Shown: one piece after another, positions 6,122 through 33,241 of the stretch
Numbering within the stretch: the first letter of the stretch is position 1
How the letters are laid out: each line of letters begins with the position of its first letter
Assembly: GCA_030431255.1 (NCBI GenBank)
Contig: JAUIJL010000004.1
Span: 124,001-188,000, forward strand
From: Thermoanaerobaculia bacterium
Lineage (GTDB): Bacteria; Acidobacteriota; Thermoanaerobaculia; Multivoradales; J023
DNA: 64,000 nucleotides
Direction: 5' to 3'
Made by a program: the position numbers and the translations under genes
Notes under the pieces: generated by a model
Told to the model about the DNA's origin: nothing
Database searches by the model: none
The model's input: only the letters and a program-made list of their open reading frames with translations

Positions 6122-8318
6122 ACGCAATCCGCAGGGGCAACGATCTCAGGCGTTGCCCCGTCAGCTTGAAGACGCCGTTGGCGATCGCCGCCCCGATCGG
6201 TCCGAGGGGCGGCTCGCCCACCGCTCCCGGCTCGTCGGTGCTTTCGAGGATCACGACGTCGATCTCTTTCGGGGCATCCCGCATCAACGCCATGCGATAG
6301 GCGCCGTAAATCGTCGGCGTGAGGGCCCCGTCCTCGACCGTCATCTCTTCGTAGAGGGAGGCGCTCTGCCCCATGATGATCGCGCCCTCGCATTGGGCGC
6401 GGATCTGATCCGGATTCACCGCCAGACCGGGATCCATGGCGCACACCACCCGGTGGACCTTGATCTCCCCCCGTTCCACGGACACCTCCACCACCTGGGC
6501 CGCCGGGGTGCCGGCATCGGTCGAAGCGGCGAATCCCAAGGCCCGACCTTCGCCGGCACCCTCCGCCCACCTCGCTCGATCCCTGGCCGCTTCGATCACC
6601 CCGCGCATACGCCGCCCCGCTTCGTCGTCCGCGAGGTGGTCGAGCCGGAATTGCACCGGATCCGCTCCGGCCTTTTCGGCCAGCTCGTCGATAAAGCTTT
6701 CAATGGCAAAGGTATTGGCCAGCAGCCCCAGGCTCCGCCACCAGCTGGTGGCAAACGGCAGCTTGACCCGCCACGACACCGCGCGATGGTGTGGGATGCC
6801 TCGGTATTGGATCATGCCGCCGCGCCAAGCCCCCAGATCGGCGCCGAGCACGGTTTCCATCAGCTCGGGAATGAACGGCGAGCCGAAGGCCACGTCACCG
6901 CTCGACACATGGTGCTCCAACGCCTCGATCCGCCCCCCGTTCAGCCTGGCTTTGAGCACGTGATGCGTGGGCGGACGGAAGGTGTCGTTTTGAAATTCTT
7001 CCTTGCGGTCGAAGAAACACTTCACCGGTCGGCCCACGGCTTTCGAAAGGACCGCCGCTTGCATGGCATTCGGCGTGTGCAAGCGTCGACCGAACCCACC
7101 GCCCAAAAAGGTCGTTTTCACATTCACCTGCCGCTCGTCGAGCCCCAGGCGCTCCGCCACCTCCCGACGGGTGATTTTGGCGACCTGGGTCGAGATCAAA
7201 ATCGTGACCTGATCGTCCGCCCCTTGCTTCGTCTCCACGTAGGCGACGGTGCCGTTGGGCTCCATTTGGGCATGGGCGCCGATCGGAGAGCTATATTCCG
7301 CTGTGATCAAGTCCCCGTCGGCGGACCCGTCGGCGGACAGAAGATCCTCCGCATCCCCCGCTTTCTGAATCTCGAAAGCCGTCCCCTCACCCACCTTGAG
7401 CATGGCTTCGATATCGGCTTGCTGCCAATTCCTATCCACCTGCCAGCGGGCTCGAATCGCCTTCTTGGCCGCCTCGGCTTGGATCTGCGACTCGGCGACG
7501 ACACCCACGAAGTCGGGCTCCTCCACCACCTTGACCACCCCCGGCATGCCCTCGGCGGCCGAGGTGTCCGCGCCGAGGAATGTCGCGCCGATTTTGTCGG
7601 GCCGGACCACGGCACCGTAGAGCATGTCCGGCAGGGCGGCATCGAAGCCGAAGATCGGCGAGCCGAGCACCTTGTCTTGGAGATCCACCCGGGCGATCGG
7701 ACGTCCGACGTAGCGGTATTCGGAGACGTCTTTGAGCGGCGGTGGATCGGGCACGACCCATTCGCTCTCTTGGGTCTGGGCCACCACCTCGCCGTAAGTC
7801 ATGGATTTGCCGGCGCCCGAGATCACCCCTGCGTCGACGGTTAGGGCCGAGCGCTCCACGTCCAGGAGCTCGGCGGCCCGGCTCTTGAGCATCTCGCGCA
7901 GCGTGGCCGAGAGCTCACGGAGCGGATTCCACAGACCGGCGATCGAGTCGCTACCGCCGGTCGAACGGGGATCCACGTGTCGATCAGTGGCGGCGTGGAC
8001 CACTTCCATGTTCTCGATCGGCACCTCGAGCTCGTCGGCGGCGATTTGAGCCAAGCCGGTAAAGACTCCCTGCCCCATTTCGACCTTGGGCGAATGCAGG
8101 ATGACCCGGTTCTCCGCGGTGATCTCAAACCAAAGATTGGGGCCGGCTTCGTTGTTGTAGCTCGGCTCCAAGTTGTGGATCATTCCAGCCATATAACGTC
8201 GGCCGAGATCACGGCTGAGATATCCCGCGCCGAGAATCACTCCCACGCCCGTGGCCGCTCCGACCAAAAACTTGCGCCGACCGAACCCCGATTTTTTGGC
8301 CTTTTTCGCCTCGCTCAT
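6105..8318 (-). CDS. Molybdopterin-dependent dehydrogenase large subunit (isoquinoline 1-oxidoreductase beta-like)
   Basis: A 737-residue large subunit of the xanthine dehydrogenase superfamily, IorB type. The N-terminus has a twin-arginine export motif ([20 protein letters not shown]), placing the enzyme in the periplasm. Landmarks are the hammerhead domain [20 protein letters not shown], MoCo-binding GGGFGRR, and the late [16 protein letters not shown] and [18 protein letters not shown] loops with the catalytic Glu context. The family hydroxylates N-heterocycles or oxidises aldehydes; the exact substrate is unknown. Its ATG overlaps the TGA of the 2Fe-2S subunit gene (ATGA), so the subunits are co-translated. 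Confidence 0.9.
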
Positions 8319-8809
8319 GACCGCTCCTCCGAGCCTTGACCGCGGATTTCGGCAGCCCGATGGATGGCTTTACGCATCCGGTAATAAGTCGCGCACCGGC
8401 ATACATTCACAATGTTGTCGTCGATATCCTGGTCCGTGGGCGACGGGATTTTCTCCAATAACGCGGCGGTCGCCATGATGAATCCCGGCTGGCAATAGCC
8501 ACATTGGGGAACCACTTCCTCGACCCAAGCTTGTTGCACCGGGTGCAGACCGCCCTCCGTCGACAGGCCCTCGATGGTGGTGACCTCTTTGCCCTCGGCG
8601 AATTTGACCGCGAACGAGCAGGATCTCACCGCCTCACCGTCCACATGGATGGTGCAGGCGCCGCAGGCGGCCTTGCCGCAACCGTATTTGGTGCCCTTGA
8701 GGTCCAAGAGATCCCTCAGGACCCAAAGCAGCGGAGTATCCCCGGCGACCTCGACCCGTTGGGCCACGCCGTTGACGGTGAACGAAATCTGCACAGGAAG
8801 CTCTTCCAT
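8315..8809 (-). CDS. 2Fe-2S subunit of periplasmic molybdenum dehydrogenase (IorA-like)
   Basis: A 164-residue electron-transfer subunit. The N-terminal plant-ferredoxin fold has the ligand pattern [17 protein letters not shown] with a further Cys in RSCSF. The C-terminal helical 2Fe-2S domain has [10 protein letters not shown] and [14 protein letters not shown]. Both clusters are therefore intact. It passes electrons from the MoCo subunit to the cytochrome encoded just upstream. The start at 8809 follows a GGAGG and overlaps the cytochrome stop (TAATG); the longer frame to 8959 would only read the cytochrome gene out of frame. It lacks its own signal peptide, which fits co-export with the Tat-bearing large subunit. 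Confidence 0.92.
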
Positions 8810-9504
8810 TAGTCTGCCTCCGTTCCGGAGCTCGAAGGTTCGGGAATGGGGGCTCCCGCGGCAAACCAGGCTTTGACTGCGGCGATGAATTGCTCGCGGG
8901 AAATCGGTGGTTTTTCTCGAGGCGTGCCTTCGTGGTCCACGCCGGGCTCGAACGCCCAAAGCACCAGCGGATCCGTAGTGAGGTGTTTCTCGATCTCCGC
9001 GGGGCTGCGACCACCGTTCTTTTCAGGGTCGAGCATCGCGCGGGCAATCTCAAAGCGGTTGAGACCTTCCCAACCCATGCTAGCGGGCGCGAGATGCCAA
9101 TGGGGCGCGCCGGGAACCCCGGAAAAATCATTATTTTCCCCTTGGTGGCATGTGCCACAAGCCAAAGCCGCCAAGCCGTGACCATCGGCCCCGCGTTGCA
9201 CATGAAAACGGTGGAGGTGGCTGTCCTCACCTTGGCGGGGCTGATCCCCAGCGGGATGGCAATTCATGCAGCGCCGGTGGGTGATCACCTGCATCATTTG
9301 CTCAAAACCCGTGATGCCGTCCACCCCCGGTGCCTCTGCATCGACCGCCGTACCGGCCGCCGGGCTCGGCTCGGCCTCGATCCAAAACCCGACGAAAACC
9401 GACGTCAGAACGAGCAGAACGACCATCGTGAAACGAAAGCTGTCATTCGGAGGCATACCCATGTGCCGGCCCTTCAAGAATTTTCGTGGCAGTGACTTTT
9501 CCAT
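8809..9504 (-). CDS. Cytochrome c-type subunit associated with IorAB-like dehydrogenase
   Basis: A 231-residue protein with one N-terminal membrane anchor ([20 protein letters not shown]) and two haem-binding CxxCH motifs, CMNCH and CGTCH, in a periplasmic domain. HWHLAP and the late [19 protein letters not shown] segment match the cytochrome partner annotated as isoquinoline 1-oxidoreductase subunit. It should relay electrons from the 2Fe-2S subunit into the respiratory chain. The ATG at 9504 overlaps the TGA of the small remnant ORF upstream; a second ATG at 9462 is preceded by a purine-rich GAAGGG and may be the true start. Confidence 0.85.
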
Positions 9505-9680
9505 CAAACTACCACGACCGGGCGCAGCCTGCCGCTGACCGATGACGACGCATCCCTTGCCGATGGCGCCAAGCCAACCCCCGACTCGATCTCATTCCCA
9601 GGCGCGGCGGGCAAGTGCGCACGCACCGCTCCCGCCGGCTCCAGCACCGAGGCCACTTGTCGGAGACGATCGGGGGTCAT
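9504..9680 (-). pseudogene. Truncated duplicate of the Ser/Thr kinase 5' end
   Basis: This 58-codon ORF begins with the same 13 residues as the neighbouring kinase (MTPDRLRQVASVL), then jumps to its AGAVRAHLPAAPG segment and ends in unrelated sequence. At DNA level, 9579-9680 matches 12372-12542 almost base for base, except for an in-frame loss of 69 bases (23 codons) at a short TCC microhomology. The kinase domain is absent, so this is a duplication remnant. Its TGA overlaps the ATG of the cytochrome gene (TGATG). It could still serve as a leader cistron that couples translation of the dehydrogenase operon, but that is inference. Confidence 0.75.
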
Positions 9681-9731
9681 ACCTACCTCAGATCAAGCTT
9701 CACAACCCGGCCGTAGAGCAGACCATGAATG

Positions 9732-29641: not shown

Positions 29642-30712
29642 ATGAGCTCATCGAACATCTTTACCGCCCGCCTGCTGGAAGCCAGCTCCTCCGCGTATGC
29701 CGGCGCAGCAGCCGGCCTGCTCCTTGAAAACCAGCCGGATTTGGCAGAGCGTTATGCTCCCAACGCCTTCAAGATGTGGAAAGCGCATCTCGAGCAAAGG
29801 GTTCTGGAGCTGATCGCAGCCCTCGATACCGAAGAGCCACGGCTCTTCTCGTCGCGCATCCGCTGGGAGCGTCGGGCGTTCGCCGCCCGGGAGCTGAACG
29901 AGCCGGATCTCAGATCCGCCCTGGACTGCCTGCGCCGGGTCTTGGAAGAGGAGCTGCCGGCACTGGCCCGCGAGCCGGCGATCCGCTTTCTCGATCCCGC
30001 GCTTCAAGCCCTCGACGAGGTCCTCCAGGACGAGCCCGCTCTCGACCCGTCCAACCCTATCCATCGTCATGCCCTCGAATATATTGAAACCACCCTACGA
30101 GGCGAGGGAACGGAAGGCATCAAGCAGCTCAAAGCCGCCATTGTCCAAGGTGGTCTGGAGATCCCCGAGGCCTACAGCGTCCTGCTCACCGCCCAGCGAG
30201 AGGTGGGCCGTATGTGGCATCTGGGCCAGCTCGATGTCTCCGAAGAGCACCTGGTCACCGCCAACACCCAACGGGCGACGTCCGCCGTCGCCGAGCTCGC
30301 CCCCAAACAGCCCTCCAACGGCAAAACCGCGCTGGTGGCCGCAGTCGCCGACAACAACCACAGCCTCGCCGTCCGGGTGCTCGCTGACCTCTTCGAAATC
30401 GCTGGATGGCGCTCCATTTGCCTAGGTCCCGACGTGCCTCCCGCCGACATCGCTACCGCCACGAAGCATTTTGAGGTCGATCTGGTGGCCCTTTCCGTAG
30501 CCTTGCCCACCCAGCTGGCATCCGCCCGCAGATCCATCGAGGCTGTTCGATCCCATTCCGAGGAGCGCACCAAGATCATGGTCGGTGGCGGCGCGTTCGT
30601 CGACGCCCCCGACCTTTGGAGAACCTTGGGAGCGGACGGTTTCGTGGCGAGTGTGGAAGATGCGGTCGCGCTCGGCGGTCAGTTGATCGGCCTAGAAAAT
30701 TCAGCCGCCTAA
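29642..30712 (+). CDS. Cobalamin-binding photosensor-like protein without DNA-binding domain (CarH/AerR-like)
   Basis: A 356-residue soluble protein. Residues about 1-130 form an unfamiliar helical N-terminus. A four-helix B12 cap follows (about 135-220) with W192 and, after exactly nine residues, E202-H203, the W-x9-EH signature of light-sensing CarH-type proteins that hold 5'-deoxyadenosylcobalamin. The Rossmann-type B12 domain (about 225-350) has the lower-ligand candidate H240 in NNHSLA, where most relatives read DxHxxG or ExHxxG, and GPDVPPADI, VGGGAFV. There is no MerR helix-turn-helix, so it cannot repress DNA like CarH; the stand-alone antirepressor AerR is the closer analogue. The start at 29642 is the first in-frame ATG. 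A flavin amine oxidase gene follows by 57 bases. Confidence 0.8.
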   Translation: MSSSNIFTARLLEASSSAYAGAAAGLLLENQPDLAERYAPNAFKMWKAHLEQRVLELIAALDTEEPRLFSSRIRWERRAFAARELNEPDLRSALDCLRRVLEEELPALAREPAIRFLDPALQALDEVLQDEPALDPSNPIHRHALEYIETTLRGEGTEGIKQLKAAIVQGGLEIPEAYSVLLTAQREVGRMWHLGQLDVSEEHLVTANTQRATSAVAELAPKQPSNGKTALVAAVADNNHSLAVRVLADLFEIAGWRSICLGPDVPPADIATATKHFEVDLVALSVALPTQLASARRSIEAVRSHSEERTKIMVGGGAFVDAPDLWRTLGADGFVASVEDAVALGGQLIGLENSAA

Positions 30713-30769: not shown

Positions 30770-32104
30770 ATGATCGCCATGACTTACGATCCGATAGACC
30801 GCGCAGATCCCGATACAGATCGTCAGGTCGGCAAAGTCGTGGTCGTGGGTGCCGGAATGGCCGGGCTGGCCGCCGCCGCGGAGCTTCGCCACCACGGCGT
30901 CGAGGTCCGAGTCTTAGAAGCTCGCCACAGAATCGGCGGGCGGATCTGGACCTCCAACCTGTGGCCCGATGTTCCTGTCGACCTCGGGGCCTGTTGGATT
31001 CACGGCGCCGACGGCAATCCCTTGACCGATCTCGCCCAGGATCTCGGTGCGCCCCACATGGTCACCAGCTACGACAATCGAATTTTCTTCGACGTCGACG
31101 GTCGGCCTCTTTCGCCAGCGGGTGAGCACCTCATGGACGAGGTGGAGGAGCACCTGGAAAAGCTCGCGGCCGAGCCCATCGACTGCGGCCCCGGAAGCTC
31201 CATGCTGGACGCCTTGCATCTGAAGTGGAACCCGGACCTGCTCCCCGATGATCGGCGACGCTGGCTACTGGCGGCGGCCAACGATACCGAGCACCTCTAC
31301 GGCGCCGATCTCGGGGACCTGGATAGCCAGACGGGATTCGATAGCGACGACGCGGTCTCAGGCCCCGACCTCTTTCTGCCCAGCGGCTACGGCGCCCTGA
31401 TCGACGGCTTGGCCACAGGCCTGAGCATCACCACGGACTGCACGGTTCAAACCGTTCGAGTCTCGAGCACCCGAGTGATTCTAGAAACCACCCAGGGGGA
31501 GATCGAGGCCGACCGAGTCCTCATCACCCTTCCTCTCGGGGTCTTACAATCCGAGCAAGTGACCTTCGACCCTCCCCTGCCCGAGCGCAAAGTCGAGGCC
31601 ATTCAACGGCTGGGCTCGGGTCTGCTCAACAAATGCTGTCTTCGTTTTCCCGACGTCTTTTGGCACGAAGGCTACGAGCTGATCGGCCACGTCGACGACC
31701 GACCCGGTCGCTGGCTCGAATTTCTCAACCTCTACGCCTACACGGAACAGCCCGTCCTGATCGCCCTCAACGGAGGCAGCTTCGCCCGTGAGCTCGAAAG
31801 CTGGAGCGACCCCGACACCGTCGACGGTGCCATGGAAGTTCTCAAAGGCATCTACGGCAACGCCATTCCCCTACCGGAAAGCGTGCAAATCAGCCGTTGG
31901 GCCGCCGACCCGTTCGCCCTCGGCGCCTACTCCTACAACGCCGTGGGTAGCGGCCCCGCAGATCGACGAGCCTTGGCTGAGCCCGCCTTCAACCGCCTCT
32001 TTTTCGCCGGCGAGGCCACCATGGCGAGCGGTTACCAAACCGTGCACGGAGCCCTGAAGTCGGGGTTCAGGGAAGCTCGGAGATTGCTGGAAGGGACCAC
32101 GTAA
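30770..32104 (+). CDS. FAD-dependent amine oxidase (flavin monoamine oxidase family)
   Basis: A 444-residue flavoenzyme. The dinucleotide-binding fold VVVVGAGMAGLAAAAELRHHG with E at the end of the second strand (VLEARHRIGGRIWT) opens the protein. The GACWIHGADGNPLTDL segment and the C-terminal FAD loop LFFAGEATMASGYQTVHGAL are typical of polyamine oxidase/LSD1-like amine oxidases. It should oxidise a primary or secondary amine using O2; the substrate is unknown. The start may be 30770 or the ATG at 30779. It sits 57 bases after the cobalamin photosensor-like gene on the same strand, so expression of both together is likely. Confidence 0.9.
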   Translation: MIAMTYDPIDRADPDTDRQVGKVVVVGAGMAGLAAAAELRHHGVEVRVLEARHRIGGRIWTSNLWPDVPVDLGACWIHGADGNPLTDLAQDLGAPHMVTSYDNRIFFDVDGRPLSPAGEHLMDEVEEHLEKLAAEPIDCGPGSSMLDALHLKWNPDLLPDDRRRWLLAAANDTEHLYGADLGDLDSQTGFDSDDAVSGPDLFLPSGYGALIDGLATGLSITTDCTVQTVRVSSTRVILETTQGEIEADRVLITLPLGVLQSEQVTFDPPLPERKVEAIQRLGSGLLNKCCLRFPDVFWHEGYELIGHVDDRPGRWLEFLNLYAYTEQPVLIALNGGSFARELESWSDPDTVDGAMEVLKGIYGNAIPLPESVQISRWAADPFALGAYSYNAVGSGPADRRALAEPAFNRLFFAGEATMASGYQTVHGALKSGFREARRLLEGTT

Positions 32105-32245: not shown

Positions 32246-33241
32246 TCACCCGGGCTGGAGAAGCTCCGGAGCAGGAGTCTTCAGTGAGGATCCAGCCATC
32301 GACCAAATCGGCTCGATGAAGGAGCGGGCGGGCGGAAAGGTGTTCTCCGGGAAGTCGACCGTAAGATCGCCGCTCTTCAAGCGTTCAGCCGCATCGCGGT
32401 ACGCCGCAAGGATGAAAGACAACGCCTCACGCATCTCGTGCCACGCTCTTCGGGTGAAGGCATGGAAGAGGGGCTTGGGTGTCGACTCTGATTTCGAGGC
32501 TCGCGCTTCCTCGGGCCGATCGTGAGGGTCCGCGTTGAGGACGGCCTCCGCCCCGAGTGGGAAGGTACCCTCCGCCCGATGCCGCACAGCCGTGTCTTCT
32601 TCGATCTTTCGCACCAGCTCCAACGCCATGGACCGCTGTTGCTCACGGCTGAGGTGTGGATGGCAAGGCAAGGGTTTTAGCTCGAGGCTCAAATGCTCCG
32701 TGAAGTCGTCCAAGGTGACGTCCTCCCCACGATCCAGGGCTCGACAGTAGGCGGTGCGATCAATCCAAATGCCCCGCAAGGGCTCGCCGGTAATTAGGGC
32801 TTCGGCGAAGGGCACGCCGGGCCAGTCGAGCGGGGAATGCACGAGATTTTCCTTGGCTCCGTGGCTCAAACAGTACGCGAGCCGAGCGGCCTGAGCCTCG
32901 GCTTCGTCGGAGAGCTGGGTGCAACGGTAGCGTTTGGGGAAAGTCGGATCTTCCCAATCGTAGAGCTTTCCGCTCTCGATAGAGAGCTTGCGGGTGAAGT
33001 CCCGCATGAATCCGGCTTGGTCTCTGACGGTTCGGCAGCTGAGCAGGAGGTGAAAATGTCCGCTCATGAAAGCGCCGCCGTGGATGTCGACGGCGTGTCG
33101 TTGTTGGGCTTTCGCCAAGGCGCCGACGATGAGGGCATTCATAGTCGGCCCGGGTTTGATGAGGTAGCGTCTTTGGATGGTTCGATTGACGATTTCGACC
33201 AAAGCACCGGGTCGGGTGTGGATACGAGGTTGTCTAGGCAT
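32246..33241 (-). mobile_element. RayT/TnpA_REP-like Y1 transposase gene
   Basis: A 331-residue protein of the IS200/IS605-related REP-associated tyrosine transposase group. It begins MPRQPRIHTRPGALVEIVNR, has the HUH metal motif in GHFHLLLS (H62, H64), and a C-terminal extension of about 150 residues. I see no terminal inverted repeats or target duplication, as expected for domesticated RayT genes, which act on extragenic palindromes elsewhere. The broken sigma-54 gene lies directly upstream. Hairpin repeats of the expected type lie at 40066-40187. Coding appears intact. Confidence 0.75.

Follow-up and report, generated by a model that had tools for sequence, protein, structure and literature searches.

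The gene at 29642-30712 of our 64,000-nucleotide window (positions 124,001 to 188,000 of contig JAUIJL010000004.1 from a Thermoanaerobaculia bacterium) encodes a 356-residue protein that is probably an adenosylcobalamin (AdoCbl) light receptor with the modules of the photocobilins in reversed order, an N-terminal globin followed by a CarH-type B12 domain composed of a helix bundle and a Rossmann domain. Judged from its sequence and predicted fold, the protein looks like a close sister of the photocobilins, built to work like one. The analysis places a protein of several phyla beside the photocobilins and maps its departures from them. An earlier sequence-only reading had proposed a light-sensing B12 protein that lacks a helix-turn-helix (HTH) domain and acts on a partner; that part is probably correct, but its link to an amine oxidase and its novel N-terminus did not hold. 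The features of the locus are as follows.

29642..30712, + strand: whole gene of the globin-first, photocobilin-like B12 protein (356 aa, ATG start)
29642..30022, + strand: phycobiliprotein-type globin, residues 1-127 (profile matches, predicted fold)
29777..29788, + strand: W46-x-x-H49, in place of the bilin motif Cys-x-Arg-Asp (alignments to 8ddy_B and 8j2w)
29864..29866, + strand: W75, equivalent to SasPcob Trp296 (70/70 sequences)
30056..30298, + strand: predicted four-helix bundle over the upper B12 face, residues 139-219 (model secondary structure)
30206..30250, + strand: G189-x-x-W192-H193-x8-E202-H203, the putative adenosyl cap, CarH His132 equivalent and dimer-interface EH
30326..30691, + strand: Rossmann B12-binding domain, residues 229-350 (Pfam, model, superposition)
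30350..30361, + strand: D237-N238-N239-H240, lower axial ligand motif (stretch DNNH240SLA)
30770..32104, + strand: flavin amine oxidase, probably not part of the system (PF01593, E = 2.9e-74)

The ATG start is plausible: Met occupies this column in 10 of 11 aligned sequences, although five of the ten homologues had been pre-trimmed to that Met, and the five untrimmed homologues have Met four times and Val once. Pfam placed B12-binding at residues 230-342 (E = 1.4e-17) and B12-binding_2 at 172-214. Its scan of the 356-residue protein detected no HTH or MerR domain and no enzyme domain, which bears out the reported absence of MerR. The W192-x9-E202-H203 signature pointed out in the sequence-only reading is exact in the translation, and G189 ahead of it completes a GxxW motif (GRMW192). 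Because W-x9-EH also arose in 194 of 20,000 shuffles of the protein (about 1%), a rate that is not negligible, the case rests on homology and not on the motif alone. The 10.2 Mb genome encodes a cobalamin adenosyltransferase and has six B12-binding matches; in the stretches examined, W-x8-11-EH occurs only in the protein described here. One divergent B12-binding-like domain of the same genome (L006, C6:106414-106725) lacks W-x8-11-EH and by eye has Leu at the axial His position, and is thus possibly not cobalamin-dependent.

A scan of genome contigs with the single sequence gave nothing, and a scan with an alignment profile gave 76 loci. By record title these belong to Acidobacteriota, Gamma- and Alphaproteobacteria, Planctomycetota, Krumholzibacteriota, Latescibacterota, Spirochaetes, a Methanoregula and a few others. 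Within the order, 13 of 72 genomes passed E <= 1e-15, and in 11, counting the own genome, the match was full length; in the phylum sample the figures were 42 of 297 at 1e-30 and eight full length, again with the own genome included. Seven loci were excluded from the alignments: L092 for an in-frame stop within the matched stretch, L114 for its short contig, and L100, L105, L117, L118 and L119 as partial matches. Rows L056, L058 and L109 were truncated where a stop codon occurs. The resulting alignment A3 contains the window protein and 69 relatives (70 sequences), and A4 covers the front half alone, also with 70 sequences. G189, W192, E202, H240, G262, P266, G315, G316 and W75 are invariant in A3, and H203 is kept in 68 of the 70 sequences.

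The N-terminal globin and its bilin pocket

The first 130 residues had been described as novel, yet they have a known fold and detectable relatives. On profile matches and predicted structure, residues 1-127 are a globin of the phycobiliprotein/photocobilin type. The window protein alone gave a marginal N-terminal match to SasPcob (E = 0.055-0.062), so the family profile was needed. In a PDB search with the A4 profile, to which neither solved photocobilin contributed, the biliverdin globins of SasPcob (E = 8.5e-9) and AbDPcob (2.3e-6) ranked first. Allophycocyanin beta (0.0051), smURFP (0.0054) and other phycobiliproteins came next, and heme globins ranked below the photocobilins (0.2-3.6). 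At E <= 1, 15 of the 70 family members matched the Pfam Phycobilisome model, with 7.6e-5 as the lowest value; the protein of our window was not among them.

A model of this domain had been called for in the sequence-only reading, and AlphaFold2 predicted a seven-helix globin (pLDDT 93.8) and not a new fold. Among the chains compared, it superposed on allophycocyanins with Z up to 16.9 (rmsd 2.0, 127 residues), on smURFP with Z 16.5 and on the SasPcob globin with Z 15.5 at 23% identity. The Foldseek E-values for the globin half were weak (best 2.9e-3, none below 1e-3), and a heme globin-coupled sensor appears further down the ranking (6m9a, TM 0.61); the globin assignment thus relies on the independent sequence match together with Z and coverage. 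A novel fold was rejected on the A4 profile matches and the structural superposition.

The covalent attachment motif of phycobiliproteins, CxRD, is absent and W46-K-A-H49 stands in its place, with W46 aligned to the covalent Cys and H49 to the Asp. Across the 70 sequences, position 46 is Trp in 67, Ala in two, Val in one and never Cys, and position 49 is His in 49, Asn in six, Asp in four, Tyr in three and Gln in two, the rest being single cases; WxxHxxxR is found in 48. Photoglobins and BBAG-2 globins, which likewise pair with a B12 domain or protein and are described as sister to phycobiliproteins, carry CXQD and RGMC, respectively (PMC10151467), whereas the window family has mainly WxxHxxxR. 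In SasPcob, Trp296 contacts ring D of biliverdin and Asp270 makes key biliverdin contacts (PMC10979010). We related the SasPcob chain to the numbering of that paper by an offset of +6, counted from Trp61. Trp296 corresponds to the invariant W75, and the Asp270 equivalent is His49.

A true dual-chromophore photocobilin, whose globin would bind biliverdin non-covalently and add a red-light response as in SasPcob, we regard as a considerable possibility that falls short of probable. The phycobiliprotein type of the globin and the invariance of W75 speak for it, but Asp at the Asp270 position survives in only 4 of 70 sequences and the Cys position is Trp in 67. AbDPcob cuts both ways, for there too His replaces Asp270 and the protein responds to red light all the same, yet its biliverdin occupancy was only about 20% (PMC10979010). 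The supply of biliverdin is similarly ambiguous. A heme oxygenase is encoded in the own genome (36.5 bits, cut-off 23), so biliverdin is probably available, but the gene adjoins a phytochrome, and the enzyme is therefore accounted for without the B12-globin protein. Within the order, 1 of 11 genomes with the family and 5 of 60 without it gave a heme oxygenase match; because this search missed the own-genome enzyme, its counts carry false negatives. A further seven family-bearing genomes gave none in a search that likewise has false negatives. Heme oxygenase thus shows no sign of enrichment and does not visibly track the family, in contrast to the association reported for B12-associated globins (PMC10151467), with the same caveat of false negatives in our searches.

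The phytochrome in question is a bacteriophytochrome hybrid histidine kinase (PAS_2-GAF-PHY-HisKA-HATPase-REC) and a second light sensor of the own genome, encoded directly beside the heme oxygenase at 3346-7019 of L041 (C25:152000-165000).

The B12 half and its nearest relatives

The full-length model was of high predicted confidence (pLDDT 95.2, pTM 0.90). Searched against the PDB, the full A3 profile matched SasPcob (E = 1.3e-48), the AbDPcob receptor domain (3.5e-44) and CtMerR (3.7e-37), followed by 1y80 (6.6e-29), 4jgi (2.8e-23), CarH (2.3e-22) and AerR (1.8e-8). The four best PDB sequences are all photoreceptors; the corrinoid proteins 1y80 and 4jgi precede CarH. Residues 138-352 of the model superposed on the photocobilins with Z 26.6 (rmsd 1.8-2.1 over 207-210 residues), on CtMerR with 23.4, on the methylamine corrinoid protein 3ezx with 22.3, on methionine synthase with 21.9, on 1y80 with 21.3, on CarH with about 21 and on AerR with 20.5. 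Foldseek, ranked by E-value, put CtMerR first, ahead of the photocobilins. When the full-length model was superposed, the photocobilin rows covered the B12 half only, as expected for permuted domains. By profile and model, overall similarity groups the B12 half with the photocobilins and CtMerR. Since non-photoreceptor corrinoid proteins equal or surpass CarH in these comparisons, such similarity is by itself no proof of light sensing, which we therefore argue from the cap residues.

A light-response signature of GxxW, EH, GxxH and GxxxP has been described (PMC11796333). The window protein has GxxW, EH and GxxxP, and DNNH replaces GxxH; Gly occupies the first position of the latter in 56 of the 70 family sequences. 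Two residues before the axial His, position 238 is Asn in 56, Asp in ten and Glu in four, H240 is present in all 70, and GNxH is the commonest form. The sequence-only reading had remarked on NNHSLA in place of DxHxxG/ExHxxG; the difference is real, yet typical of the family, and the missing acidic residue counts against the photoreceptor reading. Directly behind the cap Trp, CarH has His132, which forms the bis-His light state, CtMerR has Arg, SasPcob Gln and AbDPcob Tyr (PMC11796333), assignments that our A3-profile alignments reproduce. His193 occupies this position in the window protein and is kept in 69 of the 70 aligned sequences. This is a residue identity; by analogy with CarH, the family would combine a photocobilin-type scaffold with the ligands of CarH and might share the bis-His chemistry of the latter.

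The solved photocobilins SasPcob (8J2W/8J2X) and AbDPcob (8J2Y) have the same two modules (PMC10979010) and are the closest relatives by profile and by B12-half Z. The Trp296/W75 residue, the cap Trp, the EH pair and the axial His are shared. In the solved proteins the B12 domain precedes the globin, whereas in the window protein the globin comes first and there is no enzyme domain. The window protein further differs in Trp46 and His49 at the bilin Cys and Asp positions (the His also being found in AbDPcob), in NxH with Asn before the axial His, where SasPcob and AbDPcob have E/DxH, and in His193, where they have Gln and Tyr. It thus has the CarH-type B12 domain with W-x9/10-EH and the fused phycobiliprotein-like globin of a photocobilin, but NNH240 in place of E/DxH and His49 in place of the Asp270-type contact, so we stop short of classing it as a strict photocobilin. 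CarH/LitR and CtMerR (8JBS) have the same CarH-type light-sensing core, with a MerR DNA-binding domain where the window protein has the globin; the CarH His132 equivalent is kept in the window protein and not in CtMerR. Photocobilins with a C-terminal AdoCbl domain are already known as a group from predicted structures (PMC10979010), so the domain order itself is not new. Our limited literature search on photocobilins and photoglobins found no experimental study of a globin-first photocobilin.

AerR is a B12 photoreceptor without an HTH that consists of the B12 domain alone, with no further domain, and its partner is CrtJ/PpsR. The sequence-only reading had called an antirepressor plausible. 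Such a protein, when lit, would bind a DNA-bound repressor and remove it. The B12 halves are homologous (E = 1.8e-8, Z 20.5) and the window protein likewise lacks an HTH and an enzyme domain, so that such a role is possible. We nevertheless consider it unlikely. AerR is more distant by profile than the photocobilins (1e-48, Z 26.6), CtMerR and CarH, and B12 domain fills its whole 213-residue chain (7TE2), whereas the window protein carries a globin at 1-127. The recurrent regulatory neighbours are ECF sigma and anti-sigma genes, and no repressor was found in a Pfam scan of 30 neighbour representatives, a scan that is not exhaustive (eight of the 30 have no family, and some are probably antisense ORFs).

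A corrinoid carrier insensitive to light, or a sensor of B12 level, is slightly less likely still. B12-binding_2 and B12-binding also make up corrinoid methyltransferase proteins, the MtgC/MtbC models match far below the cut-off (1.6e-11 to 2.3e-9), and 1y80 and 4jgi come ahead of CarH, if behind four photoreceptors. Set against this is the retention of GxxW, EH and GxxxP in 68 to 70 of 70 sequences, and no corrinoid methyltransferase was found among the same 30 representatives.

Neighbouring genes and a possible output

The gene downstream does encode a flavin amine oxidase, as had been stated, but the gene-pair search proposed along with that statement did not support a link. That the protein is a light-controlled partner of this oxidase is very unlikely, for although the two genes lie on the same strand with 57 bp between them and a scan found no terminator-like site on the + strand in this gap, no oxidase relative accompanies the B12-globin gene in 10 contexts of close relatives or at any of the 76 loci (overlapping sets; flanks of up to 7 kb, some ended by the contig), and the oxidase relatives (E <= 1e-40), which 5 of 71 genomes of the order have, the own genome among them, sit on contigs other than that of the B12 gene except at the own locus. 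On these grounds the oxidase was rejected as a partner. FAD amine-oxidase-like proteins of a different subfamily (cluster c8) occur near relatives at 13 of the 76 loci; they are out of reach of an iterative search started with the window's oxidase. Further downstream, a 331-residue ORF (32246-33241, - strand) has a weak Y1 transposase match that is below the cut-off (E = 0.037).

Neighbour identities were assigned by Pfam on one representative per cluster. ECF sigma genes gave 24 matches in 23 of the 76 loci, 17 loci having one within 1.2 kb; the concentration near the gene has a rough p of 5e-5, the related loci not being independent. Six ECF genes start on the same strand no more than 20 bp past the stop (L044, L045, L054, L055, L057, L065). 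The L078 match was assigned to a long ORF overlapping the gene, and its distance is not meaningful. RskA-type anti-sigma genes were found at 10 of the 76 loci, all within 1.2 kb, and L054, L066 and L108 have sigma, anti-sigma and B12 genes together. The flank scan found no ECF gene at the locus of our gene or in 53 of the 76 loci, which counts against a sigma-factor output. Other recurrent neighbours are NAD_binding_10-type NAD(P)-binding proteins (22 of 76), CMAS cyclopropane-type synthase (15), DUF1365 (13), fasciclin (13) and photolyase-like proteins (6). In Vibrio cholerae, blue light induces cyclopropane synthase and photolyase/cryptochrome genes under the control of ChrR/sigma-E and a MerR-like protein (PMC5241685).

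Also counting against it, 11 of the 76 loci have an AcrB-type RND pump gene no more than 1.2 kb from the B12-globin gene (L075, L077, L079, L080, L083, L085, L086, L088, L091, L099, L109). The order HlyD, AcrB, B12 gene on one strand in ten of them, all but L109, suggests a shared operon.

On another contig of the own genome (C44), an ECF gene is 67% identical (query 31-202) to the B12-gene neighbour of L044. It is on the + strand and is followed by photolyase-like and Polyketide_cyc genes on the other strand (L126, C44:155000-170000, about 6696-9692), and the same Polyketide_cyc type lies near the B12-adjacent ECF gene in L044 and L045. We call the 499-aa C44 protein photolyase-like from a reading of its sequence; Pfam gave no family at 1e-4. 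It thus seems that in this genome the sensor has come apart from a sigma-factor cluster with which it stays linked in near relatives. With modest confidence, we take ECF sigma/anti-sigma proteins to be the most likely partners.

We propose that the window protein acts as a globin-first AdoCbl photoreceptor. By analogy with homologous structures, AdoCbl would be held base-off on His240 in the dark with the adenosyl moiety resting against Trp192, and a Glu202/His203 bridge would join a head-to-tail dimer. Green light would then cleave the Co-C bond as in CarH and SasPcob; the adenosyl group would leave, the W192/E202/H203 bridge would be lost and the dimer interface would fail. His193 may take the upper position in the light, as His132 does in CarH. 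The globin may shield the corrin, and could carry a non-covalent bilin or be mainly a protein-interaction module, of which the latter is more likely given the altered pocket. The surface changed by light would be offered to a partner protein. With no HTH and no enzyme domain, the output would have to be protein-protein contact, and a stand-alone photocobilin has been described as able to alter the activity of another protein (PMC10979010). The recurrent neighbours suggest that this output plausibly falls on ECF sigma/anti-sigma circuits of a photo-oxidative stress response. The most specific form of the proposal, a widespread branch in which a bilin-less globin is the interaction module, the CarH bis-His switch is kept and ECF sigma/anti-sigma control is direct, we offer tentatively and as rather unlikely in its entirety.

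The bilin pocket and the light-state ligand are confounded in the characterised photocobilins and are separated here, the pocket being altered and the ligand CarH-like, so that a single family could serve to tell whether bilin coupling is incompatible with bis-His switching. The function of stand-alone photocobilins was called less clear in the founding paper (PMC10979010). If the sigma-factor link is true, it would give them a testable output, and a route from light to a sigma factor without DNA binding by the sensor.

Two arrangements among the relatives are split. In another genome of the same phylum, a B12-domain relative (G132:C50:71915-73844, a 276-aa frame matching only profile positions 135-347) lies less than 1 kb from a heme oxygenase and resembles the split B12/globin/heme oxygenase clusters described in PMC10151467. 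In the Spirochaetes locus L113, a stand-alone GGDEF protein (8030-8611) starts 6 bp after the B12-globin gene, a pair that we liken to a split photocobilin-diguanylate cyclase.
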